From a virus, in IMG/VR virus record IMGVR_UViG_3300049783_000596, positions 1 to 25,619 of that record: DNA of 25,619 nt. One strand, 5' to 3'. The notes under the pieces are model-generated. The model was given only the letters and a program-made list of their open reading frames with translations. It had not been told where the DNA came from and searched no databases. Shown piece by piece: positions 6,001 to 23,965 of this stretch (the first letter of the stretch is position 1; every line of letters begins with the position of its first letter). The position numbers and the translations under genes are program-made.

Positions 6001-7915
6001 TTCACGAAAGGAACTCAGGTTAGATTTCATTGAACCTCTGGGAACATCAGATAACTCTGACTTATTTAATGCAACCGCTGCTATTGATTTGACCGATAGC
6101 ACTAGGTGGTTTGAGCAGCCCGATCAATTGGAAAAGATGCACCCGCGTAACAGGTTTTACTTGAACGCAAGGGTAGCCGAAAGGTTAGAGGGTGTATCAG
6201 CTGACCTCATTAATGGTAACTATTATATTCAACTAACTGAACCTGCAGATGGTGCTATCATAACACATCAGGTATCCGCAGGACCACCGACTGTTCGTGT
6301 GGAACTGGTGGCTGGGGTTGGCTATCAATTTATTACTAATAAATTGATTAAGTTTATTACTGACCCAACAACACTCACATCAATTAATGTTTCAACATTA
6401 ACTTATAGTTATGATGCTGAAAGTCCTGCAAAAATAATTAATAGAAAGGCTAAGTATGTAGTGAGTGAAGTTCCGATATGGAACCCAGCACGCCAACAAT
6501 ATTATTCTACTGCAATATATGGTGTTGATTATAGGTCAAGCACCGACCCCGCAAACTACACAACAAATTTGTGGGATAGTAGGTTTAATGATAAGGTGTG
6601 GTTTGATATAACATACGAATATTACCTACCTTTCGATGACATCTTCATTCAACCGGATGTTAACGCCCGTATGAGCAATTGGGGCAAGCTGTCACCGTAT
6701 GGTAAGATACAAACATACCAATGGGTAGAGTCTGACGTTATACCTACAGAGTACGATAGGTTTGCTCAGCTAGAAGGGCAGTCTGGGGCGACAGCCATAG
6801 ATGACAGGAAAACTGGAACATCACGTAAATTACTGTATGTTAATACTTCAACGTACCCAATACAAACTTGGGAGGAGATTCTTACGGGAGCCACAAACAC
6901 TCGCGACCAGATAGTTCCATTTATTGCGGAACTAGTCACAACATCATCATTTACTGCGGCAGGGTTGCCTACCACTAAAGATGTGAGTGTGTATGTTGAC
7001 TCCGTTTTTTATAGTACAGGCACTTTTAATAATACTACATTTGCTGCATTTGCGGTTTTTGTTGCTGGTACTTCTGCAAAGACAATACATGTAGTTAATT
7101 TAGCAGTGGAACCCACACCTACACAAATAACAGCATTTGAATATAAGTATGATTCACCTTACGTTACAGTGAATAAGGTTGACCCTATAACTGGCAATAA
7201 TGTTCCAAATTATTATTTTTGGGTAAGTGGTCGGTTAGCTACCATTCCAGTATTGGGTGGTACTTCAAGCAAGACCACATTATTCACAATCAATAAGGGT
7301 TTGGGAAATATACCAACACCGTACATGATACCTGATAAGCTAACCGACATAAGTGCATCCATCTCATCAGATGTTCTTAACTTGTCATACGAATTCCCAT
7401 ATGCATATACTAGGTTAGTTGTCAAGGGTATTGGTGGCACTGTTCCCACTGAGGACACTTATACACTGAGGTTCACTAAGGATTTCAGTTTACGTGATAG
7501 GCTAGATAGTCCTAATATATCTGAACTAAACCGAAAAAATGTACATACCGAATGGAAAATGTTCAGGGAAAGACAATTTGATAAAATTGACGTAACCCTA
7601 TGGAATGCGGTCGTTGAGTCTATATTGGGTTTTGAGTATGATGGTGGTGCGTTGGTAGATGTTGTACCGGATGTGTCTTCACCAGTACTAACACCAACCC
7701 CGACTATAGATGTTAGCCCCAGTGCCACCTCAGCCGTTGATGTGACACCGACACCGACACTTACACCTAATGTGACACCGACGCCCACCCTGACACCAAA
7801 CGCTACTCCGGGAAGCTCAAGTGCGTCCACACCATTACCGTCGGCAACACCAGCAAATACTCCAGTGGTTTCTTCAACACCAGAACCCACACCTACTCCA
7901 ACTTCTGGGACATAG
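2..7915 (+). CDS. Giant phage virion structural protein (3' part, 5' end outside window)
   Basis: The frame is open from the first bases of the window, so the gene begins upstream; 2,637 residues are visible (numbered here from the codon at position 2). I do not recognise a single family; it looks like a baseplate- or fibre-associated virion protein built from beta modules. Visible parts are: a YWFD...QWDG...W motif (about residues 69-87) that also occurs in the three downstream fibre proteins; three copies of a G(D/T)Y(T/S)(V/I) module (about 12-32, 214-258, 1417-1458); a domain centred on AQTFSELL (about 1301-1384) that recurs in the tail sheath; two related modules around YYLIRDNG and YYIIQGVG (about 1500-1527 and 1694-1738); a FYRGLIQKKG ... 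DEFWAYKLGTYG region (about 1943-1984); and a Pro-Thr-rich tail (from about 2562). There is no signal peptide or catalytic motif that I can see. The stop is one base before the next start codon. Confidence 0.8.
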   Translation, partial: NYKLSDKIRITGTGFDGDYSITNLVTSDVVQLDSDFFTQNQITYSLIRPRLLSDIESDTSFTAKDLREYWFDTVNNQLRQWDGAIWDVKVQNFSYLADNTHNTHLVDLTQRNDWVDQNKWVHRNDINTFTGKSRAQNPIIEYFPYVELSKHSFADKSWKYRDSDLFSYTPTTVEPSLFELIDTRITSGGGELSFEALNILVFDSKFGNLTPSLVAGDEIQLVDFGINTGDYTVASSEYVQPTPTSRFITKVYLAGNVNSVAIVPIGGHVAPKYTAVGDQWISFETEHWQFEGIEDISASSISPTKNPMLDGVIDTWTDGTFQTKLGLMFQEFKLLTGSQTGGVVITFDESLHDLCLFEDFQEGDLRVYINGVRQYGNFIDIAAPAATNFVGSIIFDDSITITSDDVVRAELGEYALDEIGKRAVYVNTPNGPELFNLVDIRYIEQTKDDRSQYPWFSIYNVNNEPLRKASNLFKFTNSVTGEYLPNIDQRVDYDAATQNYTFSQDLIGSETGELYLYYDRGEFGEEYQSIWKKGLYNEQYVPRLEDGLWEIPNQLFFNPKHDNRETIKLTEIFRHFTTITNSQYAQGISGGVSNMYRLTGIPNYGLGGRIKEHNDGFDTLLSAMFVNNINPIDLIYFARQRYASLQANLFEILEENIVTYLSQGGATNYIDLVSYINEEVKDNFEKNDRLDQWFGDSTTYNEDTNEGVKNWIATAPFFGLAPKVQPYIINDNIRGLRQVVHHDGHRKTIVSNPAIVSAIFSRILASADTNSETQTVASEGDAFPTTINGNAVATGDFVVRSNTTTKTRKLYMYSNIAVWEEVDVYDMYAEVILNIETALYSVLDDSLLPNNFVSKFDFDIVKNDEEYAAKIQEQFSVYLLQNHIQIPYLNTTYVQNDTFTWNYAYTGISTGPITGSPTTNTYASWQALYENLYGTPYPHLEPWVLQGYTSKPSWWDAEYLDVSLTRTWLAVMWANILDGTIPSGNPAPNGLFGTGVAGQITQLFTYLPVNIEATNTLDGYTPDGILPPYWNSNNSANVAVRTPYDAKLQEFIVTPNAGFSFGQLGPDEWKWSVSNNKIYDDMIVAFKIQPLRFMNQSFGKDLIDVAALQLDDTTNKVSSHDNILFHGEVYNTNQTFKSNGINQWYVHFNRYSGFDGVSSEFRQMWTGWEAPLTYQFGAFIDTQNFKIGSDLFDVTTKDYGVLFKKASGIRDMWLDALVATSVSSPSRYATEFEAGLDWTVEFSNTSPIGKPIEAHGVQNYPVSIESGSNILRTFSFTIDSAEISDSFGFDVVQYSESLVGATATELANDATVYTATVTFDGVDVVNLSVTGSAAQTFSELLAVINIQLGVYGTAYLSGGNLTIASDTIGGLTFSTIVDVDLFSTASSNFLGTTGNSFNPTTFDKVLYVSDDLSKYFSAGSTFDIVNSTNLNGTYTVSASAYNASTKLTRIEIDGGIIIGNTIIDGSIEPTAAVDLPEQWTTGVGLNWTSNGMISAPFNTTSLYYLIRDNGREFRLSTTREGAVAGTDIITPTTVPLNQNYIGRIQNTFTAFGARKVLAYWKQHYVDDRVVYSYPTPTTISGIQNMIDFINGYRSYLESIGFVYDDTDGTNRDVSTGRAYTWQLETEELIEFLYNSRTINEENSEQYSVTPNAPSNAFTSEYAITWNTGTKVTLSSVGGTLPAELENPIVSTVPYYIIQGVGIGTFQLAGSQTDARNGKPIKFSDNGTGVTVVTLAKSNKALPSIELNPHKQSVMVDTDTGIISNMVAGNNLDVITNQRVYGSDNIAISNSDLIVSRRDLRTRIHLTGDRVTKNITGSAPIVNIAGMHVFVDGYEHVLQFENVSSGGILIYDSFLGINTLRFTLEFDRQDGFTLRPNVGGDVILGESQVQNMESAIESLRYAYSAYGSREGDDITKSVRAALGYAGPYDYGDDIGLTDKSQFTFYRGLIQKKGTNFAANAFANQKQYSNLDIDEFWAYKLGTYGDSKLKTYPELKLFSREVSRKELRLDFIEPLGTSDNSDLFNATAAIDLTDSTRWFEQPDQLEKMHPRNRFYLNARVAERLEGVSADLINGNYYIQLTEPADGAIITHQVSAGPPTVRVELVAGVGYQFITNKLIKFITDPTTLTSINVSTLTYSYDAESPAKIINRKAKYVVSEVPIWNPARQQYYSTAIYGVDYRSSTDPANYTTNLWDSRFNDKVWFDITYEYYLPFDDIFIQPDVNARMSNWGKLSPYGKIQTYQWVESDVIPTEYDRFAQLEGQSGATAIDDRKTGTSRKLLYVNTSTYPIQTWEEILTGATNTRDQIVPFIAELVTTSSFTAAGLPTTKDVSVYVDSVFYSTGTFNNTTFAAFAVFVAGTSAKTIHVVNLAVEPTPTQITAFEYKYDSPYVTVNKVDPITGNNVPNYYFWVSGRLATIPVLGGTSSKTTLFTINKGLGNIPTPYMIPDKLTDISASISSDVLNLSYEFPYAYTRLVVKGIGGTVPTEDTYTLRFTKDFSLRDRLDSPNISELNRKNVHTEWKMFRERQFDKIDVTLWNAVVESILGFEYDGGALVDVVPDVSSPVLTPTPTIDVSPSATSAVDVTPTPTLTPNVTPTPTLTPNATPGSSSASTPLPSATPANTPVVSSTPEPTPTPTSGT
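7684..7912 (+). repeat. Pro-Thr-rich low-complexity C-terminal tract
   Basis: The last roughly 75 codons of the giant protein are dominated by Pro, Thr, Ser and Val in a degenerate TPTPT-like pattern, encoded by acaccaac/acaccgac-type DNA repeats. The same kind of tract forms the tail of the next protein and the hinges of the two long fibre proteins, so this is probably a flexible linker or exposed tail. Confidence 0.75.
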
Positions 7916-7916
7916 T

Positions 7917-8981
7917 ATGAAGTTTAGTATTTTACAGGGTATTTTTCTGACAAGTAGATCTAAAAGATACTTATCATTAAACAGTGCTGGTAATATTGAT
8001 TTGGTTATAGTGGATACAATTGGGTTGATAATATCACATGGTACGGTAAACTATCATGTGAAGGAGCCAGCAACTGTTGAGTCTGCATGGAAAGGCCCGT
8101 TTGGTAGTAGTACACAGTATTTGTACTGGGATATAGATCAAGCTACTGGTAGAGTATCATATGGTACTACACTCCTAGAGCCAACATACGGCAATACATT
8201 ACCAACGACACCAGAAATAGATCAACACTTTTTTAATAAAGTTGAAAACCGAATGTTGGTGTGGAATGGGGGCGTCTGGACTAAAAAGATACGAGTTTTT
8301 TCTGGGTCAGTATCTGGGACTAACATAGCAATGTTAGGTGCAAATTCACAAATAGATAGCATAGGAAATTACTATGCGCATCCGATAAGGTTCTTTAGAG
8401 ACGGAAAGCCAGTAGTTAAAGAATTGTCAGATGGCAACTTCGTATTTGTTACGGAAACTGGTGATGGGATTCAAGATGTTGGCCAAATCAGTAATGTAAA
8501 GTTTGATAGGTTAGACAATGGGCTGGTTGCAGACACTACCATACCAAAGTACCGTGCTGTGATTATGAGTGGTCAAAATACTATCAAATTAGCATCAAAC
8601 TTTATAATAACATCTGAGGTGGTTGGTATAACTGAAAACCTTGTTAATGGTGGAAACACAACACCTCTTATAACTTTTGGATATATAGAGAATAGAGATT
8701 TATTTAATTTCACTGACAAACCATTGGCCCATATATACTGCGGGGCAGATGGTGAGCTTACTACTACCATCCCAACAGGTGGATCTATTCAAAAGTTAGG
8801 ACATGTAGTGTCACCTAATATAATTTTTATTGATATTCAACCACAACTTATCATACTGGATAACTACGCAACAGTAACACCAACCGTAACACCAACAGTA
8901 ACTCCAGCAATGACAATTACCCCGACACCATCGGGTGTAGTGGTAACCCCAACACCATCACCAACTGGGTTCCCAGCATAA
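7917..8981 (+). CDS. Short fibre-like protein: adaptor domain plus Pro-Thr tail (paralog stub)
   Basis: This 354-residue protein starts at the ATG one base after the preceding stop (TAG T ATG). The start is fixed by paralogy: its MKFSILQGIF aligns with MLTTIRQGIV and MLISFRQGII of the two long downstream proteins. The shared domain (about residues 1-315) has signatures W.GPF.....YLYWDI near residues 56-74, FG/YGTT.LEPTYG, and QHFF...M.VW.G..W near 102-121. A Pro-Thr tail (about 318-354) ends in SPTGFPA. In the 1413-aa paralog the equivalent SPTGVSLP is followed by a beta-propeller, so this protein stops exactly at the hinge. It is probably a virion-attached fibre base or decoy, or a paralog that lost its receptor-binding half. 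The frame is intact, so nothing marks it as a pseudogene. A good Shine-Dalgarno site is lacking, which suggests translational coupling to the giant protein. Confidence 0.8.
   Translation: MKFSILQGIFLTSRSKRYLSLNSAGNIDLVIVDTIGLIISHGTVNYHVKEPATVESAWKGPFGSSTQYLYWDIDQATGRVSYGTTLLEPTYGNTLPTTPEIDQHFFNKVENRMLVWNGGVWTKKIRVFSGSVSGTNIAMLGANSQIDSIGNYYAHPIRFFRDGKPVVKELSDGNFVFVTETGDGIQDVGQISNVKFDRLDNGLVADTTIPKYRAVIMSGQNTIKLASNFIITSEVVGITENLVNGGNTTPLITFGYIENRDLFNFTDKPLAHIYCGADGELTTTIPTGGSIQKLGHVVSPNIIFIDIQPQLIILDNYATVTPTVTPTVTPAMTITPTPSGVVVTPTPSPTGFPA
8870..8978 (+). repeat. Pro-Thr tail of the stub paralog
   Basis: Degenerate acaccaac-type repeats encode VTPTVTPTVTP and TPTPS-type residues at the C-terminus of the 354-aa protein. 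The tract matches the first hinge of the two long paralogs in position and composition. Confidence 0.7.
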
Positions 8982-9005: not shown

Positions 9006-9314
9006 ATGGACCTTAAACAATTATACAAGAATGTGATCACTGGTGAGAGTATATTACTTGATCCCAAAGAATCGACAATGTGCCCATATTCTGAAATATT
9101 CACATCACTCACCGATTGGGTTGTGACTCACAATAATGACACCATGTTAATCGTTATGCAAGTATTTGTTAATGATATTTTAGTAGACCCCGATGGAGTA
9201 GTAATAAATGATGGCAATACGTTTACTGTTAAATTTGGGGTTCCAACGGCAGGTAGGGTAAACTTCTTGGTATATAAAGGCATTGGTGGTAATGGTTGTG
9301 GAGTTGTTGATTAG
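9006..9314 (+). CDS. Small virion-associated protein, possible single beta-domain
   Basis: This 102-residue protein has an ATG with AGGA (8997-9000) at suitable spacing. I do not recognise the family. The second half (VFVNDILVDPDG ... FTVKFGVPTAGRVNFLVYKG) has the beta-strand rhythm of phage structural modules in which a short 'V(F/Y)(V/I)NG' strand is followed by a turn and a hydrophobic strand. The giant upstream protein contains a comparable LRVYINGVRQYG segment, and its C-terminal region has a VVKGIGG segment resembling VYKGIGG here. No signal peptide or membrane segment is apparent. Lying between two fibre paralogs, it may be a fibre-associated cap, a small attached subunit or an assembly chaperone; the sequence cannot decide. 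Confidence 0.65.
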   Translation: MDLKQLYKNVITGESILLDPKESTMCPYSEIFTSLTDWVVTHNNDTMLIVMQVFVNDILVDPDGVVINDGNTFTVKFGVPTAGRVNFLVYKGIGGNGCGVVD

Positions 9315-9344: not shown

Positions 9345-9374
9345 ATGTTAAATAATTATGAGTATAAAGTGTAA
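9345..9374 (+). CDS. Possible nine-codon leader ORF overlapping the fibre start
   Basis: ATG at 9345 opens a frame encoding MLNNYEYKV and stops at TAA 9372-9374, overlapping the next ATG by one base (TAATG). No Shine-Dalgarno site precedes it, but the predicted late transcript would begin almost exactly on this ATG. It may couple translation of the fibre gene, whose own start lacks a clear ribosome site. A mini-frame this short can also occur by chance. Confidence 0.25.
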   Translation: MLNNYEYKV

Positions 9375-12300
9375 TGCTTACAACAATACGACAAGGTATA
9401 GTATCAAAGCAAGAGTCCATTAGGTTTATAGCACTCTCCAATGGGAATGTTAACCTTAATGCGGATTCTTCGCCTACCATATTTACTCTGGCCCACGGTG
9501 TAACCGATTATTTACATACCGAACTTGAGACTGTAGCGAATGCATGGGTTGGGCCTTTTTCAAGAACATCAAATTATTGGTTATATGTTGATATAGATAC
9601 TACTACTGCTGTGCGAACATTTGGTAAGACCACACTTGAACCAACCTTCGGACGAACACAACCAACCAAGCCAAGTAAAGATCAACACTTCTTTGACACA
9701 ACAATTAATAAGATGTTAGTGTGGACTGGTTCATACTGGAAAGAAAGAATAAGAGTATTTACATCCAACATATTAGCAGGGAAGATAGCTATATTAGATG
9801 TTGGTTCTCAGATAAAACTAAACCAAACACGGAAGGCTGGTGAGATAATATTTGATGTTAACGATGAACCCGTAATGAGGTCGTATGGTTCTTTCCTAAC
9901 ATCTGAAACTATAGTACATTCTTCGGAAAATCCTTCAAACTCATTTAAGCTTGAACAGTTCCAGATAAAGGCTAAGGCTATTGAAAATATTCCAAAATTT
10001 CACGCGGTAACATGGAAAGGACCATCCAAGTTAGGTGTGGCATCTTATATTGATATTGTGAATGGTCAATGTGTGGGTGTTTCTGTAAACGATATAATGA
10101 AGGATGATATTAATAAATTTGCAACAAGTGGGCACATTTACAATGGTGCTTGGAATTTTTCTAAGCCAGCCGGTACATTATTGTTTGTTGGGCTTTCAGG
10201 TGAGATAACTACAGATGTTCCAGATAACACATCAATTCAAATTGTGGGAAAGGTTGTTACACCGAATACAATATTCCTAGATATCCGTGATAGGTTAAAA
10301 ATAAATGCACCAGTTATATCACTAACACCAACACCAACAGCAACTGGAACGGTAACACCAACCCCAACTGCAACTGGAACGGTAACCCCAACCCTAACAG
10401 CTGCACCAACATTAACACCGACATTAACTCCAACATATACGCCAACCACAACATTAACTCCAAGTCCCACGGGCGTATCACTTCCAGTACTACGGCATTC
10501 AATAATAGACCCCAATCCACATTGGTTTAGTAATAATGATTCATTTGGGTATACTGTTTCAACATGGGGGAACTATGCCATCGTTGGTGCTCCAAAGGAA
10601 TCTTACGTTGGGACAGAGGACTTTGCCAGCGACAACGGAATAGCATATATTATAAATGTAAATAGTGGCGATGTTATTCGGACACTATACAACCCAAACG
10701 ATTACAGTTTCTCGGAGGGTGACGAGTTTGGCGCAGCAGTTGCAATGCATGGGAATCGCGCATTAATCTCAGCAATAGATGAAGAGACTGAGGCTAGTAG
10801 AGGTGCTGGTGTGGTATACATGTTTGACGTTGGCACTGGTGAAGTCACACTCACACTCAGGAATCCAAATTTGGACACAGCTAGTGAAGCCTTTGGTTCG
10901 GCAGTAGCATTGAGTGACGATTATTGTGTTATAGGGGCTTATAGGGTTGGTGACTTTAACGATGGTGAGGCATATGTGTACAGCGCCAGCACCGGAACAT
11001 TATTACACACTCTAGTGAACCCAAACCCATACGGCCTTACAGCCTTTGATAATTTTGGGTTTGCTGTTGCCGCAAGTGGTAGATATGCAATAGTGGGGGC
11101 ACCATATGAGGACAATGGTGGTGTGGTGTATGTGTATGATATGCTAGGAACGACACCCGCAACGCCAACACACACGATATTAAATCCAAACCTTAATGGT
11201 ACAACTGTTAATGGCACATTAGTTGGTGATAGATTTGGAAACGCGGTTGCAATTGATGGAAACTATCTTATTGTTGGTGCACCGGATGAAGTTAATGCAC
11301 TTGCCGCCAAGGTGGGTGCAATATACATATATGACCTCACTAGTGGAACCCCAACATTAACATACTCCATCCCAAGTTACAATAACACCACAGGTGGTGA
11401 ATTTGGGTCGAGTGTTAGCCTTAGTGGGAATTACGCAGTCGTTGGTGCAACTGAGGGCAACATATATGGCATGGCATATTTAATTAATGTTACAACTGGG
11501 CTGTTGGAGTACACATTCGATTACCCCGGAACAGGGGATGCAAACCAATCGTGGTTTGGGTTTAGTGTAAGCATATCCAATGAAACTGTTATAGTAGGTG
11601 CACCATATGAATCAAACAACACACTTTCTCAATATGGTGGGGCATCATACATATACAACATATTAACAGTTTCAAACGTGCCAGCATACACACCGGCAAC
11701 CACAAATACGGTAACACCAACACCGACTGCTTCATATAATTCGTACAGCTATACTTTGAATAACCCATATGCCGCACCTACAGACTTATTTTACGGGTAC
11801 GCTATCGCATTATACGGTGACTTGTTATGTGTGGGGGCACCTGCGTACAATAACAACAACGGGGAAGTATATGTATATGACATATTGACCGGTACTTTAT
11901 TAGAAACAATAAGCAACCCACTGGCATCAACCGATGAATTTGGTATGAGCTTGGAGATGAACGCAAATTACCTAATAATTAGGTCAGAAACTAATGTGTA
12001 TGCATATAACGCATCAACAAGGGCACTACTATTTACATTTAATGTTGCTGGCAGCAACTTGAGTGTGTATGGTCAACCATCTCGCGGGATTGGGTTAAGT
12101 GGAGCATTTTTAATAGTTGGTGACACACTATTTGATGGTGCAGCCGCAAATACGGGCAGGGCATACATATACGACATGGCTGGTGGTACACCGACCACCC
12201 CAATACACACGTTCGAGAACCCAAATGCTCATGGGACAGCACTTAATGATTATTTTGGTTCAGGTGTTGCAATGGATGGGAATAGTGTAATTATTGGTGC

Positions 12301-13615
12301 AATGCGAGAGAGTGAAGATGTTGTTATAACTGGTTTTTCTATTACGAATGGAAAAGCGTACATATATGACCTCACTAGTGGGACTCCGACTATTCCGGTA
12401 TACACATTAGATAATCCAACAAGTTCCACCGCATTATACTTTAATTATGATTATTTTGGGGCGTCCGTGGCTATCGAAGGTAATGTTATTGCGGTGGGCG
12501 CACCATTTGCAAGTCGAGAAGGACAAACAATATCAGGCAGTGTCTACCTATATGATGCATCAACGGGGGGGTTGACACGCACAATAAATAACCCGGCGGG
12601 TGAAGGATATAATGCCAGATTTGGCGCGTCGATAAAAATTTATGGCAGTAACTTAATGGTTGGCGCAGAAGCCCAGAAATCTCTTGAGGGTTCAACTGTG
12701 GGCAAGGCATACATATATGACATAGTAACGGGAGATTTGAAATACCAGTACGACAACCCTGTTACGGGTGGTGTTGTTGTTGGTACTACTTTTGACGGGT
12801 ACGCAGCATTTAATTACTTTGGGCACGGTATAGCAATATCTGAAAATTATGCAGTTGTGGGTGCATATAATACGGCATATGGTGAAAACTATGCATCATT
12901 TAATGACGGCACAGGGAGGGTATATGTGTATCGACATGTAATCGCAACACCAACACCAACACCAGCATCAACGCTTACACCAACACCAACGTTAACGGTA
13001 AATGCATCCGTAACACCGACAGTGACACCCACACCCACACCAGTGTACGAGTTCTTAAGTGGGGATATAATAGCTACTGTTGTGCCAGCTTCACAAGGTG
13101 ACATATATACCATGCCCAATAGTAATGTTTATCATAGATACCTATTAATAGCCACATATAGTTCTGCTGAAGTGTTGGCTATTACTGGTGGCAATACTAC
13201 TGTAAATATACTGGGCATGGAGTTTGACGTGGATCTACAACCAGATAACCAACCGTTCCCTGATTACGGGATTGGTATGAAACTAACAACAAATGATATA
13301 ACGCTTGACAATTCAGGGACAAACGGTGGCACGTTCACAATAGTAAAATCACCCTCACCTGAAAGCTTTACTACTGGAGTTGTTAAGGAGTTCACGTTTG
13401 ATACCCCATTGCAGTGGACAGAAGGCAACAATTTGGTAGTATCGTGGGCTTGGGGTGACACCACAGCTTGGACTAATACTGGATACACACCATCGGGTGC
13501 CGGGATAATGTATATAAATGGTCTGGATACTGCGGGTACATTTGCCGTGGATGACCCGGCTGATTGGAGTGAGCCATGGCGACCAGTATTCAGGTTGAAG
13601 CTGTCACCAGTGTAA
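9374..13615 (+). CDS. Fibre/adhesin with two tandem seven-bladed FG-GAP-like beta-propellers
   Basis: This 1413-residue protein is probably a tail-attached host-recognition fibre. Domain order: N-terminal adaptor (about 1-313) homologous to the two paralogs; Pro-Thr hinge (about 314-372); propeller 1 (about 375-770); short Pro-Thr hinge (about 773-788); propeller 2 (about 790-1190); Pro-Thr hinge (about 1190-1224); C-terminal domain (about 1225-1413). Each propeller has seven repeats of the pattern D.FG..VA..G.Y.IVGAP ... G.AY.YD..TG.L..T..NPN, for example DNFGFAVAASGRYAIVGAP and GDRFGNAVAIDGNYLIVGAP (each 20 residues or fewer). This is the FG-GAP repeat family known from integrin alpha chains and bacterial surface proteins; the integrin-type DxDxDG calcium loops are not evident. 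The C-terminal domain has PDYGIGMKLTT, PSPESFT and WAWG, shared with the next fibre. The start at 9374 is supported by N-terminal alignment to the paralogs. A late promoter lies just upstream. Receptor binding is inferred. Confidence 0.85.
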   Translation: MLTTIRQGIVSKQESIRFIALSNGNVNLNADSSPTIFTLAHGVTDYLHTELETVANAWVGPFSRTSNYWLYVDIDTTTAVRTFGKTTLEPTFGRTQPTKPSKDQHFFDTTINKMLVWTGSYWKERIRVFTSNILAGKIAILDVGSQIKLNQTRKAGEIIFDVNDEPVMRSYGSFLTSETIVHSSENPSNSFKLEQFQIKAKAIENIPKFHAVTWKGPSKLGVASYIDIVNGQCVGVSVNDIMKDDINKFATSGHIYNGAWNFSKPAGTLLFVGLSGEITTDVPDNTSIQIVGKVVTPNTIFLDIRDRLKINAPVISLTPTPTATGTVTPTPTATGTVTPTLTAAPTLTPTLTPTYTPTTTLTPSPTGVSLPVLRHSIIDPNPHWFSNNDSFGYTVSTWGNYAIVGAPKESYVGTEDFASDNGIAYIINVNSGDVIRTLYNPNDYSFSEGDEFGAAVAMHGNRALISAIDEETEASRGAGVVYMFDVGTGEVTLTLRNPNLDTASEAFGSAVALSDDYCVIGAYRVGDFNDGEAYVYSASTGTLLHTLVNPNPYGLTAFDNFGFAVAASGRYAIVGAPYEDNGGVVYVYDMLGTTPATPTHTILNPNLNGTTVNGTLVGDRFGNAVAIDGNYLIVGAPDEVNALAAKVGAIYIYDLTSGTPTLTYSIPSYNNTTGGEFGSSVSLSGNYAVVGATEGNIYGMAYLINVTTGLLEYTFDYPGTGDANQSWFGFSVSISNETVIVGAPYESNNTLSQYGGASYIYNILTVSNVPAYTPATTNTVTPTPTASYNSYSYTLNNPYAAPTDLFYGYAIALYGDLLCVGAPAYNNNNGEVYVYDILTGTLLETISNPLASTDEFGMSLEMNANYLIIRSETNVYAYNASTRALLFTFNVAGSNLSVYGQPSRGIGLSGAFLIVGDTLFDGAAANTGRAYIYDMAGGTPTTPIHTFENPNAHGTALNDYFGSGVAMDGNSVIIGAMRESEDVVITGFSITNGKAYIYDLTSGTPTIPVYTLDNPTSSTALYFNYDYFGASVAIEGNVIAVGAPFASREGQTISGSVYLYDASTGGLTRTINNPAGEGYNARFGASIKIYGSNLMVGAEAQKSLEGSTVGKAYIYDIVTGDLKYQYDNPVTGGVVVGTTFDGYAAFNYFGHGIAISENYAVVGAYNTAYGENYASFNDGTGRVYVYRHVIATPTPTPASTLTPTPTLTVNASVTPTVTPTPTPVYEFLSGDIIATVVPASQGDIYTMPNSNVYHRYLLIATYSSAEVLAITGGNTTVNILGMEFDVDLQPDNQPFPDYGIGMKLTTNDITLDNSGTNGGTFTIVKSPSPESFTTGVVKEFTFDTPLQWTEGNNLVVSWAWGDTTAWTNTGYTPSGAGIMYINGLDTAGTFAVDDPADWSEPWRPVFRLKLSPV
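10321..10490 (+). repeat. Pro-Thr hinge 1 of first fibre, with a tandem 30-bp repeat
   Basis: Codons for TPTPTATGTV repeat twice (10327-10356 and 10357-10386, differing at only a few bases), followed by degenerate LTPT repeats up to the first propeller blade. The hinge probably separates adaptor and propeller physically. Its repeated DNA is a likely site of slippage or recombination. Confidence 0.75.
11324..11346 (+). repeat. 23-bp block identical to 12359-12381 (blade duplication trace)
   Basis: This block, encoding the YIYDLTSG strand of a blade in propeller 1, is identical base for base to 12359-12381 in propeller 2. Most other blade sequences have diverged, so this suggests recent copying or gene conversion between the propellers. 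Confidence 0.7.
12359..12381 (+). repeat. 23-bp block identical to 11324-11346
   Basis: Second copy of the identical block, in a blade of propeller 2 (YIYDLTSG). The flanking bases differ within a few positions on both sides. Confidence 0.7.
12946..13047 (+). repeat. Pro-Thr hinge before the C-terminal domain, first fibre
   Basis: This acaccaac-type repeat DNA encodes TPTPTPAS...LTVNASVTPTVTPTPTPVY. The LTVNASVTPT core is almost identical at protein level to the matching hinge of the next fibre at 17108-17220, which shows that hinge and tip domain are inherited together. Confidence 0.75.
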
Positions 13616-13639
13616 TATATACCTAATAGGGAACACAAA

Positions 13640-13705
13640 ATGAATACACCAACAATTAGGATCAGTATTATAATAATGCAAACATATTATGTTAATATCA
13701 TTTAG
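13640..13705 (+). CDS. Possible 21-codon leader ORF overlapping the second fibre start
   Basis: ATG at 13640 has a fair ribosome site (AGGGA at 13628-13632, seven bases upstream) and opens a frame encoding a hydrophobic 21-residue peptide (MNTPTIRISIII...). It runs 17 bases past the ATG of the second fibre at 13689, which itself has no recognisable ribosome site. This arrangement could couple fibre translation to leader translation. No relative is known to me and it could be fortuitous. Confidence 0.3.
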   Translation: MNTPTIRISIIIMQTYYVNII

Positions 13706-16700
13706 GCAGGGGATAATATCCTATCAAACAACACCACCATACCTTGTGCTTTCAGGTGGGTTCGTTGACCTATTCACCGATTTATTACCAGTAGAATTAA
13801 CCTTCGCAGATAAAGACACAAATTACCTGCATGTGGAAAATGAAAACATTAGTGGTGCGTGGTCAGGACCATTTGATGTTGGGACTGACTATTGGTTATA
13901 CTGGGATATCTCCACCACTACTGGCATTAGAACATTCGGCACAACAACCCTAGAGCCGGTATATGGTAATCTAAAACCAACTAGTGCTGGGATAGGCCAA
14001 CATTACTTTGATACAGTAACAACTGATATGTCTGTTTGGGATGGCGATGATTGGGTAAGGAAAATACGAGTATTTGCTGGTAAAATAACATCAGGTACTA
14101 GTTTAGAAATATACTCTACTGGAACCCAAGTAGAAATACACGAAGATGTAATAATAGGTTACTTGTTGTTTGATAACACTGGGCCACTAACTCGTAAGAA
14201 TGGCACACTACTAACTACAGAATCACCTATTAACATAACAAGCAGCCCACACAATTCATATAAATCAGAAGTTGAACAACATATTGCACGTGCGGTCCAG
14301 TACATAGATAAATTTCAATTAGTATCGTTTAGGGAAAATAATGATATTGGAGCGGTATCTTCAGTTGTGCTAACATCGGGACCGTGCATAGGTATTGCCA
14401 TAGATAGCATACCTACTGGTGGCGTTGGCAATTATGTTACTGGTGGATATGTAAGCAACCCTATGTGGAACTTCACAAATGATCCGGGATCGCCAGTGTT
14501 TGTGGGTAAGGACGGTGAAGTAAGTGTGAGCTTATCACCTAGGATATCTCTGCAGCGAGTAGGCCAGATAGTTAATAGTACAACAATATTTCTTAATATA
14601 GAAGAAAGAATATTACTTACATCAGTAGCACTCACACCAACACAAACAGTAACACCAACACAAACAGTAACACCAACAGCGACGGTAACACAAACAGTAA
14701 CACCAACAGCGACGGTAACACAAACAGTAACACCAACTGTTACGCCCACTGGTGTAGTTCTTTCACCAACACCAACACCAACAACAGTGTACCTGCCCCC
14801 CATTGATAGTATTGCAAACCCAAACACTTATGGCAATTCTAGTGGTGATGGTTTTGGGGATAGTTCTAACTACGATGCACAGGATGTAAGAACCATTGAT
14901 GCTAATGCCAACTATATAGTTGTTGGCGCATATGGGCAGGGGACTGCAGAGTTCCCATCTAAGAAAATGGGAATGGTATATGTATTTGATGCAACAACAA
15001 GAGAATTGGTACACACATTAGAAAACCCAGAAGACAGAGTAATATACGTGTCCGGGTCGTCAACCCTTTATGCTGATGCCTTGTGGGGTTTTTCTGTGGC
15101 AATATCTAGTGATAACATAATTGCTATCGGGTCACCAAACATGAGGGTTTTTACTGTTAGTAATTACAACTTTAAAGGTGGGGTATATCTGTATGATATG
15201 GATAGTGTCACACCGACGGAACCATTCAAGTTTATAACAGATGGCATATCTGCTAATAATATCTACTTTGGCAGGAGCATTTCGTTTTATGGTGATAACC
15301 TCATTGTTCGGTCTGAATACTCGGGCCTAACTAGAAATGGGGCGGCATATAGATATTCAGTTCTAAACGATACTTTAACCCAAATCACCCAACTCGCGAA
15401 ACATAGGGTCGTAATACACGGCAATTTAATTGCAATAAATTACAATAATACCGAAACTAGAATATATGATACTAACCTTTCACTACTAACCACAGTTCCG
15501 TATGCTAGCCGCTATCTTACAATATATAATAATTATGTATTGATAAATGACCGTGTATATGATGTGGGTATAGGGAGTAATGTCTTATTATATTCTATAG
15601 TACCACCCACAGGATATGATACCATTAACACTACAGGAGTTATGAGTAATGGTAAATTAGTACTACCACTTATTGATCTAATAACTCAACGCGGGTGGGT
15701 TTTTGTATACGATTTGCCAACTGGTGCGTTTTTATTCAAAACACCACAGCCGGGTGCTGCCCAAATACCATACCTGAACGATACTGGGTACGGTTTCTTG
15801 GGAAAATCTATGGCTGCAATTGGCGACACATTTGTAATATCAGATAATCGAAATTCTGAAGCTGGAACGGAAGCAGGGCATGTCCATGTGTATGATCTTT
15901 CTGATAGGTTTGCTGCGATTTCACCAACACCAACACCAACACCAACCGTTACGCCACTAGCACAGCAGATAATACTGTACGAGAACGATGTCGAATCTAC
16001 AAATTACGAAATTTCTTCGGTGGCAATGTCAGATGCCTATCAAGTTATCGGTGAGTATGAAACTAACACAGTGTTTGTTCGTGATGCTATAACTGGCGAT
16101 TTATTACACACAATTACAAACCCCCTTGGTAATTTCGAATTTGGAGAAGTTGTTGCTGCCCATAATAATTATGTTGTTGTAAGTGGGCGTAGCGCAGTAA
16201 ACAACCGAATGATATTTGTATATGACATGGTTAGTGGAACCCCTACAGTACCAGTGACAACCATTACAAACCCAGAAGGCACTTTGTATAATTTTGGAGG
16301 AGTTACTAACAGCTTTGACGTTTCCGACACACATGTGATAGTCGGCTCATATGGATATAGTAGCAACACTGGGAGGGCATACATTTTTGATATAATTACG
16401 GGTGCATTAGTACAAACACTAAACCCAACATTTACGAGTGATCACTTCGGGTACGCGGTTGCAATATCAGGAAATTATGCATGCTGTGGTGCCCCAGCCA
16501 TCGGTCGCCTCACACCAAGAAGCTACATATTCAACGTTACTACGGGTGCACTGCTAACCACCCTAACAAAACCCGTGATTACCGGAAGGTATGCTGGGTA
16601 TAGTCTTTTTGGTACAAGTATGTCGATGGTGGGGGATTATTTGGCAATCGGTGCAAGCCAAGCATATTCAAACACTATACCATTTGCCCTTCAAGATAAG

Positions 16701-17792
16701 GAATCATTCTCAGGTGAGGTGCACCTTTTCCAACCATCCACGGGTGCATTAATACGATCTATAGTAAACCCAGATGCATACGGCAATGGGCCAATAGGTG
16801 ATAGGTTCGGCGCTGCCCTTGACATGAACAGTACGCATATCATTGTCGGCGCTAATAGGGAGGGTGATAATGATATAAAGGGAGCCTGTTATTTAATCAA
16901 CATATCAACCGGGGAAGCAGACTATCGATTTTTACATGAATATGCCAATATTAATGATGATGTTAGTGGTAATTTAAAAAATGTTTACGATTTTGGTAAA
17001 GATGTTGCCATATCAGACGCGGGGTATATGATTGTCGCATACGGCTACTTTACATCTTCCCTTAACAACATGATTAGTAATGTCTCATCATACTTATTTG
17101 CTGCGCCAACAGTTACACCGACGCAAACTGTTACCCAGACAGCAACCCCAACCCCAACCCCAACACTGACAGTAAATGCATCAGTAACCCCAACAATAAC
17201 CCCAACCCCAACCCCAGTGTACATCACGTGGTCAGGTGACATACTGTTGGCAGATGGTGTTAGTGGTAACCAAGACGCATCACCAGTAAACATATATTAT
17301 AGAAGAACCATAATCACAACCACGTATAGTGAGGCTGAATTGAGGGCGGCATTTGGGGCGAATGGCACGAGCAATTTAGTTATAAGTAAAATGAGATTCC
17401 TAGTAACTGAACAACCACTCTATCAACCGCTCCCAGATTACGGAATTGGTATGAAACTTACCACTTCGGGAATTACTACTAATACATCTGGCTCTGGGTT
17501 TACTGTAGTAAAGACCCCATCACCAGAAAGCTTTACTGCTGGGGAATACAAGGAATTCATACTAGATACCCCATTTACTTTGACTCCGGGGAATAACCTA
17601 TCAATAGCGTGGGCTTGGGGGCAATGCCCTGTAAATTGGAATGCAACTGGCAGGATGCCTATTGAAACAGTTAGTGGTGGGCTATCATTTTCGGATGAAA
17701 CTGATGACGGGGGGGCATATGTAGTCAATGACGGGGCGTTTAATACTTGGAATTATAGGCCAGTAATCCAATTAGAATTTACAATATTATAA
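13689..17792 (+). CDS. Second fibre/adhesin with two seven-bladed beta-propellers
   Basis: This 1367-residue paralog of the preceding fibre has the same architecture: adaptor (about 1-313), Pro-Thr hinge (about 314-370), propeller 1 (about 372-742), hinge with TPTPTPTVTP (about 742-758), propeller 2 (about 760-1137), hinge (about 1138-1178), C-terminal domain (about 1180-1367). Propeller 1 is degenerate: several of its seven blades lack FG and VGAP and keep only the hydrophobic strands (for example HGNLIAINYNN and MSNGKLVLPLI). Propeller 2 keeps clearer blades such as SDHFGYAVAISGNYACCGAP. The C-terminal domain shares PDYGIGMKLTT, VK.PSPESFT.G, KEF..DTPF and WAWG with the first fibre. The ATG is fixed by alignment of MLISFRQGIIS with the paralogs and by an in-frame stop 13 bases upstream. 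It is probably an alternative or co-assembled receptor-binding fibre; the role is inferred. Confidence 0.85.
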   Translation: MLISFRQGIISYQTTPPYLVLSGGFVDLFTDLLPVELTFADKDTNYLHVENENISGAWSGPFDVGTDYWLYWDISTTTGIRTFGTTTLEPVYGNLKPTSAGIGQHYFDTVTTDMSVWDGDDWVRKIRVFAGKITSGTSLEIYSTGTQVEIHEDVIIGYLLFDNTGPLTRKNGTLLTTESPINITSSPHNSYKSEVEQHIARAVQYIDKFQLVSFRENNDIGAVSSVVLTSGPCIGIAIDSIPTGGVGNYVTGGYVSNPMWNFTNDPGSPVFVGKDGEVSVSLSPRISLQRVGQIVNSTTIFLNIEERILLTSVALTPTQTVTPTQTVTPTATVTQTVTPTATVTQTVTPTVTPTGVVLSPTPTPTTVYLPPIDSIANPNTYGNSSGDGFGDSSNYDAQDVRTIDANANYIVVGAYGQGTAEFPSKKMGMVYVFDATTRELVHTLENPEDRVIYVSGSSTLYADALWGFSVAISSDNIIAIGSPNMRVFTVSNYNFKGGVYLYDMDSVTPTEPFKFITDGISANNIYFGRSISFYGDNLIVRSEYSGLTRNGAAYRYSVLNDTLTQITQLAKHRVVIHGNLIAINYNNTETRIYDTNLSLLTTVPYASRYLTIYNNYVLINDRVYDVGIGSNVLLYSIVPPTGYDTINTTGVMSNGKLVLPLIDLITQRGWVFVYDLPTGAFLFKTPQPGAAQIPYLNDTGYGFLGKSMAAIGDTFVISDNRNSEAGTEAGHVHVYDLSDRFAAISPTPTPTPTVTPLAQQIILYENDVESTNYEISSVAMSDAYQVIGEYETNTVFVRDAITGDLLHTITNPLGNFEFGEVVAAHNNYVVVSGRSAVNNRMIFVYDMVSGTPTVPVTTITNPEGTLYNFGGVTNSFDVSDTHVIVGSYGYSSNTGRAYIFDIITGALVQTLNPTFTSDHFGYAVAISGNYACCGAPAIGRLTPRSYIFNVTTGALLTTLTKPVITGRYAGYSLFGTSMSMVGDYLAIGASQAYSNTIPFALQDKESFSGEVHLFQPSTGALIRSIVNPDAYGNGPIGDRFGAALDMNSTHIIVGANREGDNDIKGACYLINISTGEADYRFLHEYANINDDVSGNLKNVYDFGKDVAISDAGYMIVAYGYFTSSLNNMISNVSSYLFAAPTVTPTQTVTQTATPTPTPTLTVNASVTPTITPTPTPVYITWSGDILLADGVSGNQDASPVNIYYRRTIITTTYSEAELRAAFGANGTSNLVISKMRFLVTEQPLYQPLPDYGIGMKLTTSGITTNTSGSGFTVVKTPSPESFTAGEYKEFILDTPFTLTPGNNLSIAWAWGQCPVNWNATGRMPIETVSGGLSFSDETDDGGAYVVNDGAFNTWNYRPVIQLEFTIL
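14635..14785 (+). repeat. Pro-Thr hinge 1 of second fibre, with perfect tandem repeats
   Basis: An 18-bp unit is repeated exactly (14635-14652, 14653-14670), followed by a 30-bp unit repeated exactly (14671-14700, 14701-14730). They encode TPTQTV and TPTATVTQTV steps. Perfect copies indicate recent expansion by slippage or unequal exchange, and the hinge length probably varies between relatives. Confidence 0.85.
15919..15960 (+). repeat. Short Pro-Thr hinge between the two propellers, second fibre
   Basis: accaacacc repeats encode SPTPTPTPTVTP and separate the degenerate first propeller from the second. The first fibre has a matching short tract near 11690-11736. Confidence 0.7.
17108..17220 (+). 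repeat. Pro-Thr hinge before the C-terminal domain, second fibre
   Basis: accccaacc-type repeats encode VTPTQTVTQTATPTPTPTL followed by TVNASVTPT and TPTPTPVY, matching the equivalent hinge in the first fibre at 12946-13047. Confidence 0.75.
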
Positions 17793-17837: not shown

Positions 17838-18587
17838 GTGGACACACCAACATTAGGCAACTATTACTACAACGAGCAATTCAGAAAGCATATCATCCAG
17901 TTCATGGCGATATTCACTGGACTAAAAGTCTCCACAGGTAAAAATGATTTTAACTCTGCAAGTAACCTTATAGCCGTACCTATCGTGTATGGTAGTAGGG
18001 ATAGAGTAGTATCCCATATCTTTTCAGAACAAACACAGAATAAGTTATTGAGGCTTCCAATTATGAGTGCCCAAATAACGGGGATTGACCTAGCCACCGA
18101 TAGGCTTGCTGGGCAAAGCCAAGAACGTAAAGAGATAAAGTTAAAGCGTGGTGGGTCCATACCAGACGACTTACAGCAACACTCTATGATTAAGCCAGTC
18201 CCATACGAAATACAAATGGAAGTGGCACTAAACACATCTAACACTGACCACCATTTTCAGTTACTTGAACAGATATTATTATTGTTTAACCCCTCACTGC
18301 AGATACAGGTATCCGATGCATACGGCAACCAACAAAGTGTTATAGATGTATTCTTACGGGGTATAGCATTAGATGAGAATTACCCAGCAGGTACAGACAG
18401 TAGAATAGTATCATCCACTATACAGTTTAGTTATGTGATGTACCTATCATCGCCTGTTAATTTGCGTAATGAAATAATCAAAGAGATACAATTGCGTGTT
18501 GCGGCATCCAATGATTTTGCTAGTATAAACTATGGTGGCATTGACCCATTCATAATTTCTGCTGAAGATTGGGATAAACCCCAATAA
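17838..18587 (+). CDS. 15: Tail terminator / sheath stabiliser, T4 gp15-like
   Basis: This 249-residue protein (T4 gp15 is about 272) probably forms the hexameric ring that caps tube and sheath and joins tail to head. The N-terminus GNYYYNEQFRKHI ... FTGLKV ... IAVPIVYGSRDRV follows the gp15 pattern (FYNSSFRRY ... VPITYASK). The middle MIKPVPYEIQMEVAL ... QLLEQILLLFNP matches the gp15 segment around PIKMIYELSIFTR and VEQILPYFQP. The start is the GTG at 17838, preceded by GAGG at good spacing; no ATG lies in frame before residue 28, which would cut into the conserved N-terminus. It sits directly upstream of the sheath gene, consistent with its partner. The upstream gap has only a weak TATATAAA-like sequence. 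Confidence 0.85.
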   Translation: MDTPTLGNYYYNEQFRKHIIQFMAIFTGLKVSTGKNDFNSASNLIAVPIVYGSRDRVVSHIFSEQTQNKLLRLPIMSAQITGIDLATDRLAGQSQERKEIKLKRGGSIPDDLQQHSMIKPVPYEIQMEVALNTSNTDHHFQLLEQILLLFNPSLQIQVSDAYGNQQSVIDVFLRGIALDENYPAGTDSRIVSSTIQFSYVMYLSSPVNLRNEIIKEIQLRVAASNDFASINYGGIDPFIISAEDWDKPQ

Positions 18588-18661: not shown

Positions 18662-20788
18662 ATGGCAAAATTAGTAAGCCCCGGAGTGGCAGTATCAGTA
18701 ATAGACGAGTCCTTTTATGTTCCGGGCCGTCAATCAACTGTACCAATAATTTTCATAGCTACGGCTGATGAAAAAGCACAACCAGATGGAGTAACCCCAG
18801 CACTAGGTACATATGAAAATAATGTAATTAGGACTGTGACTAGTCTATCACAATCACTGGCATTATATGGAACACCAAACTTCCTAGTAGATAGTGCTGG
18901 ACAACCACACCATGGTGATGCTCGTAACGAGTATGGCCTTGACGCACTAAACAAGTTCCTAGAAATCGGCAATGTTGCATATGTTGTTCGTGCTAACGTA
19001 AACTTAGATGATACCTACACTAATGTTAAGGCACTGTGGACAGCAAAGGTTAGTGAAGCTGGCGACACGCTTAACACATTGATCACAAATTATATTGAAG
19101 AATATAATAGTGCAAATGGATTAGTGCCTGCATCTCCCGGCTATAAGCAGACGGTAACCAACGTTGAACTAAAAACACTGGTTGACGAAGCTATGGTTCA
19201 GGTATTTGACTCATATTCATTTAGTTCTTCACAATTTGAATTGGATTTCCTACAAGATCATACTACTGATATTGCTGGATACCAAGACATCTGTTACGAT
19301 GATACAGGTGGTAACATCACTGGCCTAGACGTAACTGGACTTAATAACGACACAACTCTTTATGGATTTGAAGTAGCTGTAGTTGACAACGGTGGTAGCA
19401 ACACATTCAACGTTTCAATCGCTGGACAAGATGCACAAACCTTTGTTGAACTTATATCTGAAATTGAAGCTGATATTCAAGGTGTAACTGGAGACGCGGG
19501 CACAGTTGTTGAGATAATCTCTGGTTGTATCCGAATTACCTCTGGTCTAGCTGGTGCAACATCTTCAATTGAGGTGCTCTCTGATGGGTTCTCTGGTACT
19601 GCGGCATTGTTCGCAAACACCAACCTGTTCAGCACATTCGAAACCCCGGTTGACGGAGTAGGACCATCACCCCTTGACATATATACTGATGATTTCACGT
19701 CTATTGTTGACACATACGATGGGCTTACATCTATAGTTGACGGTTGGAGTGCTGGTAGTGTTTCCGCAACAGAGTTTACTGCAAGTGAAGGTGAAGGTGT
19801 TCTACTAGCCGGTGCTGCAGATTTTGATAACACACTTGAGTTCAAAAACCTAACATCGTTAGGTGGAAATGATGCAGCACGACGTGCAGCTATTGTTACT
19901 CAACTGCAAGGTGCAATCAATAACCCAAACAGCCTATTTAGGTCTGATCGATATGACTACAATCTAGCAATATGTGCTGGTTATTGGGAAACAACAGATG
20001 AGTTGGTTAGGCTTACTAATGACCTAGATAATGAAGTATTTGTTATCGCAGACACACCGTTTAATCGTGCACCAACTGGACCAAATGGCCTAGTTGAATG
20101 GCAGGAAGATAACAAGGTGTTCAGTAACATGGTTGCATATTACTATCCACATGGCTTATCTAGCAACACTGATGGTGTAAATATTATGACTTCAGCTGCA
20201 TCGTCTGCATTGCGAACTTATGCAATAAGTGACCGAGATACTGAACTGTGGTATGGCCCAGCTGGTCCAACCCGTGGTACGGCATCACACTTGAATGATA
20301 TTGGGTATGTTTATGGAAACCTTGGAACAGCTACTACTTTCGTAGTTAATAACGTTGACAAAGGAACACAAGATACGTTGTTCGCAGTAGACATCAACTA
20401 CTTTGCACGCGTCAGAAATAGAAGTATTGTCTTAATGTCACAAAATACTACACAATCTGCAAACTCAGCACTTGACCGTGTTAACGTTTCTAGACTGACT
20501 GCACATATTCGACGCGAATTACGTCATAGCTTATTCGACTTCTTGTTTGAGCCAAACGATGACCTTACTCGCCAGAACGTTAAGGCAGCAACAGATAGTT
20601 ACTTGGGATCACTACTTAGCCGAAGGGCATTGTATGACTTTGCAACGCAGGTTGACGATGGAAACAACACACCTGATGTTCTTGATCGTAGTGAATTGAT
20701 TGTTGATATAGCGATCAAGCCAGTGAAGGCTGTTGAGTTTATACTTGTTGATTTACGACTTGTAAGGACTGATGCTATTATCAACTAA
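18662..20788 (+). CDS. 18: Contractile tail sheath protein, T4 gp18-like
   Basis: This 708-residue protein (T4 gp18 is 659) assembles as stacked hexamers around the tail tube and contracts to drive injection. The N-terminus KLVSPGVAVSVIDES is the classic sheath start, followed by a segment ending NVAYVVRAN. The C-terminal third carries the conserved sheath core: IRRELRHSLFDFLFEPND, then NVKAATDSYLGSL, then a beta-rich end with VDIAIKPVKAVEFILVDLRL. An inserted domain at about residues 218-325, centred on AQTFVELI and ending near NLFSTF, also occurs in the giant structural protein at 3902-4152. It is probably on the outer surface, as the variable sheath insertions are in T4. A strong GAGGAG ribosome site fixes the start. 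Arginine codons lean towards CGN, unlike the AGG-rich giant protein, consistent with high expression. A terminator follows. Confidence 0.95.
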   Translation: MAKLVSPGVAVSVIDESFYVPGRQSTVPIIFIATADEKAQPDGVTPALGTYENNVIRTVTSLSQSLALYGTPNFLVDSAGQPHHGDARNEYGLDALNKFLEIGNVAYVVRANVNLDDTYTNVKALWTAKVSEAGDTLNTLITNYIEEYNSANGLVPASPGYKQTVTNVELKTLVDEAMVQVFDSYSFSSSQFELDFLQDHTTDIAGYQDICYDDTGGNITGLDVTGLNNDTTLYGFEVAVVDNGGSNTFNVSIAGQDAQTFVELISEIEADIQGVTGDAGTVVEIISGCIRITSGLAGATSSIEVLSDGFSGTAALFANTNLFSTFETPVDGVGPSPLDIYTDDFTSIVDTYDGLTSIVDGWSAGSVSATEFTASEGEGVLLAGAADFDNTLEFKNLTSLGGNDAARRAAIVTQLQGAINNPNSLFRSDRYDYNLAICAGYWETTDELVRLTNDLDNEVFVIADTPFNRAPTGPNGLVEWQEDNKVFSNMVAYYYPHGLSSNTDGVNIMTSAASSALRTYAISDRDTELWYGPAGPTRGTASHLNDIGYVYGNLGTATTFVVNNVDKGTQDTLFAVDINYFARVRNRSIVLMSQNTTQSANSALDRVNVSRLTAHIRRELRHSLFDFLFEPNDDLTRQNVKAATDSYLGSLLSRRALYDFATQVDDGNNTPDVLDRSELIVDIAIKPVKAVEFILVDLRLVRTDAIIN

Positions 20789-20804: not shown

Positions 20805-20830
20805 AAAAAAGGGGCTTAGGCCCCTTTTTT
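20805..20830. terminator. Bidirectional rho-independent terminator
   Basis: A six-A run, GGGGC, a four-base loop, GCCCC and a six-T run form a hairpin with a T tract on both strands. It ends the sheath transcript on the plus strand and the convergent 247-aa gene on the minus strand, whose stop codon begins at its edge. Confidence 0.9.
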
Positions 20831-21573: not shown

Positions 21574-21598
21574 ATTAAAAAACTCCTTATTGTATATG

Positions 21599-21655: not shown

Positions 21656-21686
21656 ATTAAACAAACTCTTATTGGAGAAATACAAC

Positions 21687-23942: not shown

Positions 23943-23965
23943 TAACTAAAGATTTGAGGATAAAC

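Follow-up and report, generated by a model that had tools for sequence, protein, structure and literature searches.

Tandem FG-GAP_2 beta-propellers on hinged arms in two neighbouring putative fibre proteins of an uncultured jumbo T4-like phage

The DNA analysed here (IMG/VR record IMGVR_UViG_3300049783_000596, 25,619 nucleotides, hereafter the window) is a 25.6-kb piece of a jumbo T4-like phage that has not been cultured and is a relative of Xanthomonas phage XacN1. Within it two neighbouring genes, which we call W1 and W2, encode large proteins built around pairs of beta-propellers. Our reading, to which we give a probability of about 0.62, is that W1 and W2 are late-expressed virion fibres of this phage with flexible multivalent adhesive arms. 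On this reading the N-terminal base would hold each fibre in the particle, with a bead domain that probably makes a trimer, and each chain would run through a flexible Pro-Thr hinge of ~60 residues into an arm of two seven-bladed FG-GAP_2 propellers, beyond which come another Pro-Thr hinge and a small beta domain. With two propellers per chain a trimer would hold out as many as six of them on its three mobile arms and could grip the host envelope, or the polymers on its surface, multivalently and with low affinity, and the tips would be exchangeable, being replaced and copied between neighbouring bases.

Beta-propellers of W1 and W2

The two genes and their predicted domains are as follows, with lengths in amino acids (aa).

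9374..13615, + strand: W1, putative fibre gene, open reading frame of 1413 aa
9374..10297, + strand: W1 base domain, residues 1-308, predicted local distance difference test (pLDDT) mostly 80-93, residues 195-310 being the bead domain
10304..10483, + strand: W1 Pro-Thr linker 1, residues 311-370, 62% T+P+S, predicted disordered
10484..11689, + strand: W1 propeller A, residues 371-772, seven FG-GAP_2 blades (Pfam, blade profile, AlphaFold2)
11744..12943, + strand: W1 propeller B, residues 791-1190, seven FG-GAP_2 blades (Pfam, blade profile, AlphaFold2)
12944..13048, + strand: W1 Pro-Thr linker 2, residues 1191-1225 (composition)
13049..13612, + strand: W1 C-terminal beta domain, residues 1226-1413, 44-46% identical to that of W2
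13689..17792, + strand: W2, putative fibre gene, open reading frame of 1367 aa
13689..14612, + strand: W2 base domain, residues 1-308, 38.5% identical to the W1 base, pairs with fibre 2 of the related phage contig L020
14616..14792, + strand: W2 Pro-Thr linker 1, residues 310-368 (composition)
14793..15920, + strand: W2 propeller A, residues 369-744, five recognisable blades and probably two degenerate ones (blade profile; low model confidence)
15960..17102, + strand: W2 propeller B, residues 758-1138, seven blades (blade profile, model)
17103..17222, + strand: W2 Pro-Thr linker 2 (composition)
17223..17789, + strand: W2 C-terminal beta domain, residues 1179-1367, 44-46% identical to that of W1

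A first-pass annotation made from the sequence alone had proposed two fibres each with a tandem pair of seven-bladed propellers, and had suggested a search against FG-GAP families and structure prediction as checks. Both open reading frames were confirmed at the positions it gave. The Pfam family FG-GAP_2 (PF14312, cut-off 23) strongly matched both proteins, W1 with E=2.8e-73 (242 bits, 12 stretches) and W2 with E=2.5e-22 (79 bits, 5 stretches). Using a blade profile built from W1's own blades we found 14 blades in W1 (391-1196), seven per propeller, and 12 in W2, five in propeller A and seven in propeller B, while the seed profile alone gave 23 domains above 5 bits in W1 and W2 together versus 6 in 400 composition-preserving shuffles.

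The AlphaFold2 model of W1 residues 1-1195 has a mean pLDDT of 70, with most propeller strands at 75-92, and each propeller is modelled with 28 strands forming seven four-stranded blades in a ring closed by its N-terminal strand (372-378 and 793-796). Propeller B of W2 was modelled in the same way as a seven-bladed ring with a closing strand, at moderate confidence (about 70-86 in most strands). The models thus show closed seven-bladed rings in W1 A, W1 B and W2 B, and for these three propellers the proposed architecture stood. It fared less well for propeller A of W2, which together with the C-terminal domain of that protein gave no confident model; here ~100 residues (566-665) lie between the blades that were found, space for two degenerate blades, and seven blades are probable with two of them (~566-665) deduced only from this spacing.

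The same annotation had likened the architecture to that of integrins. As regards the fold this likeness holds, in that the propeller models matched tandem WD40 proteins and integrin alpha chains, and a profile of the four propellers matched integrin alpha-M among PDB sequences (E 4e-4). It did not extend to the full DxDxDG calcium-loop motif of integrins, which was not found in W1 or W2, or to the classic FG-GAP family PF01839, which in the Pfam scan of the two proteins reached 9.9 bits against a cut-off of 22.1.

Many propellers are glycan enzymes and phage endosialidase tailspikes use one, and the propellers of W1 and W2 could on that ground be depolymerase-like enzymes in place of binders. 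We regard this as quite improbable, as the matches are only to repeat families without assigned catalysis, no catalytic signature was seen in the propellers, which diverge to ~30%, and one of the four is degenerate.

The first Pro-Thr linker of W1 (312-369) has a pLDDT of ~30. It is our guess that the hinges may be glycosylated, because in XacN1 (L002, 2070-4692) sialyltransferase/glycosyltransferase-like genes directly adjoin genes for Pro-Thr-linked proteins and glycoproteins have been reported in the XacN1 virion (PMC5852040). The C-terminal beta domain had no significant relatives in phages, in Pfam or PDB, in the 84,980 bacterial and archaeal genomes searched, or in IMG/VR outside the same population.

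The base domain and its relatives

W1 and W2 have their N-terminal base of ~308 aa in common with a third gene upstream, W0, the three bases being 32-39% identical. W0 and the promoter motif before W1 are placed as follows.

7917..8981, + strand: W0, tipless fibre with the base domain, a Pro-Thr linker and nothing beyond; base 35-37% identical to that of W1; an ortholog of the same layout occurs in L020
9332..9339, + strand: T4-type late promoter octamer TATAAATA, 35 bp before W1 (motif placement)

In a profile search base residues 195-310 matched the bead domain of gp82, a neck fibre protein of cyanophage A-1(L) (gp82C, gp82 126-240; PDB 8keg_a, E 2.8e-13). This bead has been modelled as a trimer within a bead-chain fibre of ~100 nm (PMC10966104), and with such a domain in the base the contrast first drawn between these proteins and trimeric fibres is probably wrong. 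The homology points to a virion fibre but not specifically to the neck, because only the bead half of gp82 was matched and not the half that anchors it there.

Relatives of the base were found in 20-odd IMG/VR contigs of environmental phages. It was not found by tblastn in 50,697 deposited phages, nor in the 84,980 bacterial and archaeal genomes, and it therefore looks phage-specific and environmental. In some of these relatives it carries classical fibre shafts (L021, L034, L037, L038, L052) or a collagen-like shaft (L035), and in L031 and L036 it stands alone beside fibre genes and the gene in the slot of gp7. The genes around W1 and W2 are those of a tail, in the order gp5-like, gp25, gp6, the gp7-slot gene for a very large protein, W0, the gene of a 102-aa protein, W1, W2, gp15, sheath, two tube paralogs and a head-closure protein, with one inverted gene between the sheath and tube genes.

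The octamer TATAAATA occurs four times in the window versus 3.7 times expected, which is at chance level. All four copies however lie inside the 577 intergenic bases of the window (2.3%), 20-35 bp ahead of a gene read in the same direction (for the inverted gene we chose as start the ATG nearest the site), and it is by this placement and not by number that we call a late promoter.

The assignment of W1 and W2 as fibre proteins, made in the first reading of the DNA, is thus supported by the homology of the base to the A-1(L) bead, the classical shafts found on the same base, the tail-gene neighbourhood and the late promoter. The same evidence bears on whether these could be secreted or intracellular adhesin-like cargo proteins found outside the virion. 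Similar FG-GAP_2 proteins do occur in bacteria and haloarchaea (plasmid hits), but a phage-specific base common to classical fibres and missing from the cellular genomes searched, at a late-promoted locus inside the tail gene block, makes this the least probable of the explanations considered, and we give it very little credence.

Tips on the base and the weighing of the readings

Across the phage group nearest the window the base is followed by a Pro-Thr linker and then by varied tips. There is no tip after the linker in W0, L020 fibre 0 and L027, while W1 and W2 carry their FG-GAP_2 pairs, DUF5122 propellers follow in L046 and in two fibres of L030, and in L026 a Pro-Thr hinge joins two blocks of kelch-like repeats (repeat count by eye and motif, with no Pfam hit). 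The tip of L029 is LamG-like plus repeats (by eye), that of L020 fibre 2 is PKD-like (weak Pfam PKD) with leucine-rich-like repeats, and that of L020 fibre 1 is a repeat domain without family assignment. These differing tips on one fibre base point to an interchangeable host- or surface-gripping module which seems not to have been described in phages, exchangeable fibre tips as such being a classical theme. Two further propeller genes were seen: L027 (10408-15501) encodes a 1697-aa protein with a different N-terminal domain (AIHPQNM type) and matches to several propeller families including PQQ and FG-GAP_2, and in L041, a 363-kb contig, an RCC1-like propeller gene (12801-13934, by eye) directly follows a fibre with a W1/W2-type base.

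In a tree of the bases W0, W1 and W2 pair with L020 fibres 0, 1 and 2, which have the same gene order, and a clade of the W1 and W2 bases was rejected (approximately unbiased test, p=0.0076). Support for the first two pairings is 100/99 and 99/98. The bases would accordingly be old paralogs kept in order between phages. The tips tell otherwise, as those of W1 and W2 match each other at E 1e-57 but do not match the tips of the L020 fibres with which their bases pair. Likewise the two L030 tips match each other at E 3e-61 on bases that do not group as sisters, of which one is a long branch; no cross-genome pair matched among the tips compared. Because the W1 and W2 bases are orthologous to L020 bases with unrelated tips, yet the W1 and W2 tips are alike, it appears that the bases remained where they were and that their tips were replaced, with copying from one neighbour to the next.

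We tentatively suggest, as a proposal somewhat short of even odds, that these are a distinct class of phage adhesion fibre with a phage-specific trimeric base, mucin-like Pro-Thr hinges and a plug-in adhesive cassette. This cassette would repeatedly be one propeller or two in tandem, from families unrelated to one another (FG-GAP_2, DUF5122, kelch-like), and its copying from one fibre gene to a neighbour within the same genome would make the tips change in concert and leave the bases as they are. The base is a recognisable marker by which such fibres can be spotted in uncultured phages, and on it adhesive tips of several propeller families are seen to be exchanged. XacN1 was reported to lack tail-fibre homologs (PMC5852040), and jumbo T4-like phages such as XacN1 can infect a wide range of hosts with no recognised fibre genes; if the tips do bind hosts, base and tip together would make the evolution of host range in uncultured giant phages directly testable.

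Several points weigh against W1 and W2 being exchangeable adhesive fibres of the kind we favour. In A-1(L) the distal carbohydrate module of the neck fibres failed to bind the host (PMC10966104). The alignment of the base begins at gp82 residue 126, leaving the neck anchor gp82N (residues 1-125) unmatched, and so does not fix the point of attachment. The pairing of W2 with L020 fibre 2 has a support of only 84/92, and the W1+W2 clade was tested after the tree had been seen, though that grouping was the natural prior expectation. The degenerate propeller A of W2 looks as if not every propeller must be intact.

Given the failure of the A-1(L) module to bind, a neck-fibre-like role for W1 and W2 is possible by analogy, and they could be accessory neck, collar or whisker-type fibres of the virion, serving loose adhesion to matrix or other surfaces or the control of other fibres, and not primary receptor binders. 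The only solved relative of the base sits in just such a neck fibre, jumbo relatives bear 'hairy' whiskers whose gene has not been assigned (Atu_ph07), and electron microscopy of XacN1 showed no tail fibres despite Pro-Thr-linked modular proteins beside gp15. We nevertheless consider this unlikely, if clearly less so than the enzyme and cargo explanations, as the neck anchor gp82N was not matched, the gene block comes after the baseplate genes (gp6, gp7 slot) and long classical fibre shafts occur on the same base in other phages. We therefore retain late-expressed fibres with adhesive arms as the preferred reading, and infer their presence in the particle, their trimeric state, their attachment at baseplate or neck and their binding to the host surface.

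Genome setting and comparison with known systems

The remaining features of the tail-gene block are listed below.

2..7915, + strand: large gp7-slot protein, of which the C-terminal ~2640 aa lie in the window; matches phrog_10938 (virion structural protein) at E 1e-68; in the longer contig gp6 immediately precedes it
9006..9314, + strand: small 102-aa protein, a single copy of a domain; phrog_21918, E 2.7e-5
17838..18587, + strand: tail sheath stabiliser gp15; PF16724, E 8.6e-42
18662..20788, + strand: tail sheath
20830-21579, - strand: inverted gene lying between those for sheath and tube, with a late-promoter-like site of its own; no PHROG match

The tail sheath is 54% identical to that of XacN1 and 52% to those of Stenotrophomonas phages CM1/RAS14. 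A 51-kb IMG/VR contig (G001/L001) differs from the window at 7 positions over ~25 kb and extends it upstream through gp6, gp25, a hub-lysozyme, SbcCD and a portal gene; the two are one population and as a pair carry no evidence on variability. The order of gp25, gp6 and the large protein recurs in XacN1 (ORF323-325), and by its gene position the large protein would be gp7. Its first 933 aa in the window are 38-42% identical to XacN1/CM1/RAS14 proteins, and it ends in a long Pro-Thr tail (7459-7915) with nothing after it. The domain of the 102-aa protein forms part of larger fibre or structural proteins in related phages (XacN1 ORF370/372 and RAS14) and opens a LamG-like fibre in L020 (by eye). 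Both tail-tube paralogs (21672-22280 and the much longer 22371-23462) have XacN1 counterparts (ORF351, ORF349), and the protein at 23954-25282, 3' of the head-closure gene, has an acidic GMGDDEGMGDMGDDEG repeat tract and no PHROG match. No tRNA or Rfam features were found in the window.

XacN1 ORF369-372 (L002, 4700-17069) resemble W1 and W2 as Pro-Thr-linked modular proteins adjoining gp15, and some of their tips look by eye like other propellers, though the XacN1 paper reports no tail-fibre homologs; they differ in having other N-terminal domains and no FG-GAP_2. We had considered XacN1 ORF373-375 as the neck genes gp13/gp14 and rejected this, as they are glycosyltransferase-like and yield no neck argument.

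The A-1(L) neck fibre (gp82/gp81/gp80; PDB 8keg, PMC10966104) resembles our proteins in its bead domain (window residues 195-310 versus gp82 126-240), but is assembled from bead proteins that are separate, ends in a carbohydrate module and has no propellers, and its gp82N was not found in the window.

Integrin alpha-subunit propellers have the seven blades, FG and GAP motifs and profile and fold matches in common with W1 and W2, which differ in their tandem pairing and in lacking calcium loops, a beta subunit and the downstream integrin domains, with 11-16% identity in fold alignments.

The first reading set propellers apart from the usual receptor-binding fibres of phages, but they are not without precedent in phage receptor-binding proteins, examples being the five-bladed Gp45 of Staphylococcus phage phi11, P2 of PRD1 and the seven-bladed gp131C of phiKZ (PMC4901313). 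The phi11 and phiKZ proteins are alike in placing a propeller in a baseplate or receptor-binding protein, phi11 Gp45 being a trimer, but each has a single propeller per chain with no FG-GAP motif reported and without Pro-Thr hinges or a tandem pair. In W1 and W2 the propeller is seen, and its presumed place in the particle comes from gene order only.

FG-GAP_2 or same-fold proteins occur elsewhere, in bacteria, as gp054 of cyanophage S-TIM5, in a giant virion protein of S-MbCM6, in an Atu_ph07 'hemagglutinin' and in the prasinovirus MntV1, and these are not known to sit on a fibre base of the W1/W2 type. In S-TIM5 the FG-GAP match falls on gp054 (L015, 7650-8873), a 407-aa protein whose annotation is virion structural.

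No paper turned up in a literature search combining FG-GAP with phage and tail fiber. In 2024 an algal virus was proposed to be perhaps the first in which FG-GAP repeats had been confirmed (PMC11467894); here such repeats sit in phage fibres. Propellers in phage receptor-binding proteins and FG-GAP_2-like propellers in cyanophage, jumbo-phage and giant-virus proteins are thus already known, and what seems new, as far as the literature searched shows, is that FG-GAP propellers come in pairs on hinged arms, that the base domain can serve as a marker in environmental phages and that tips are exchanged in concert.

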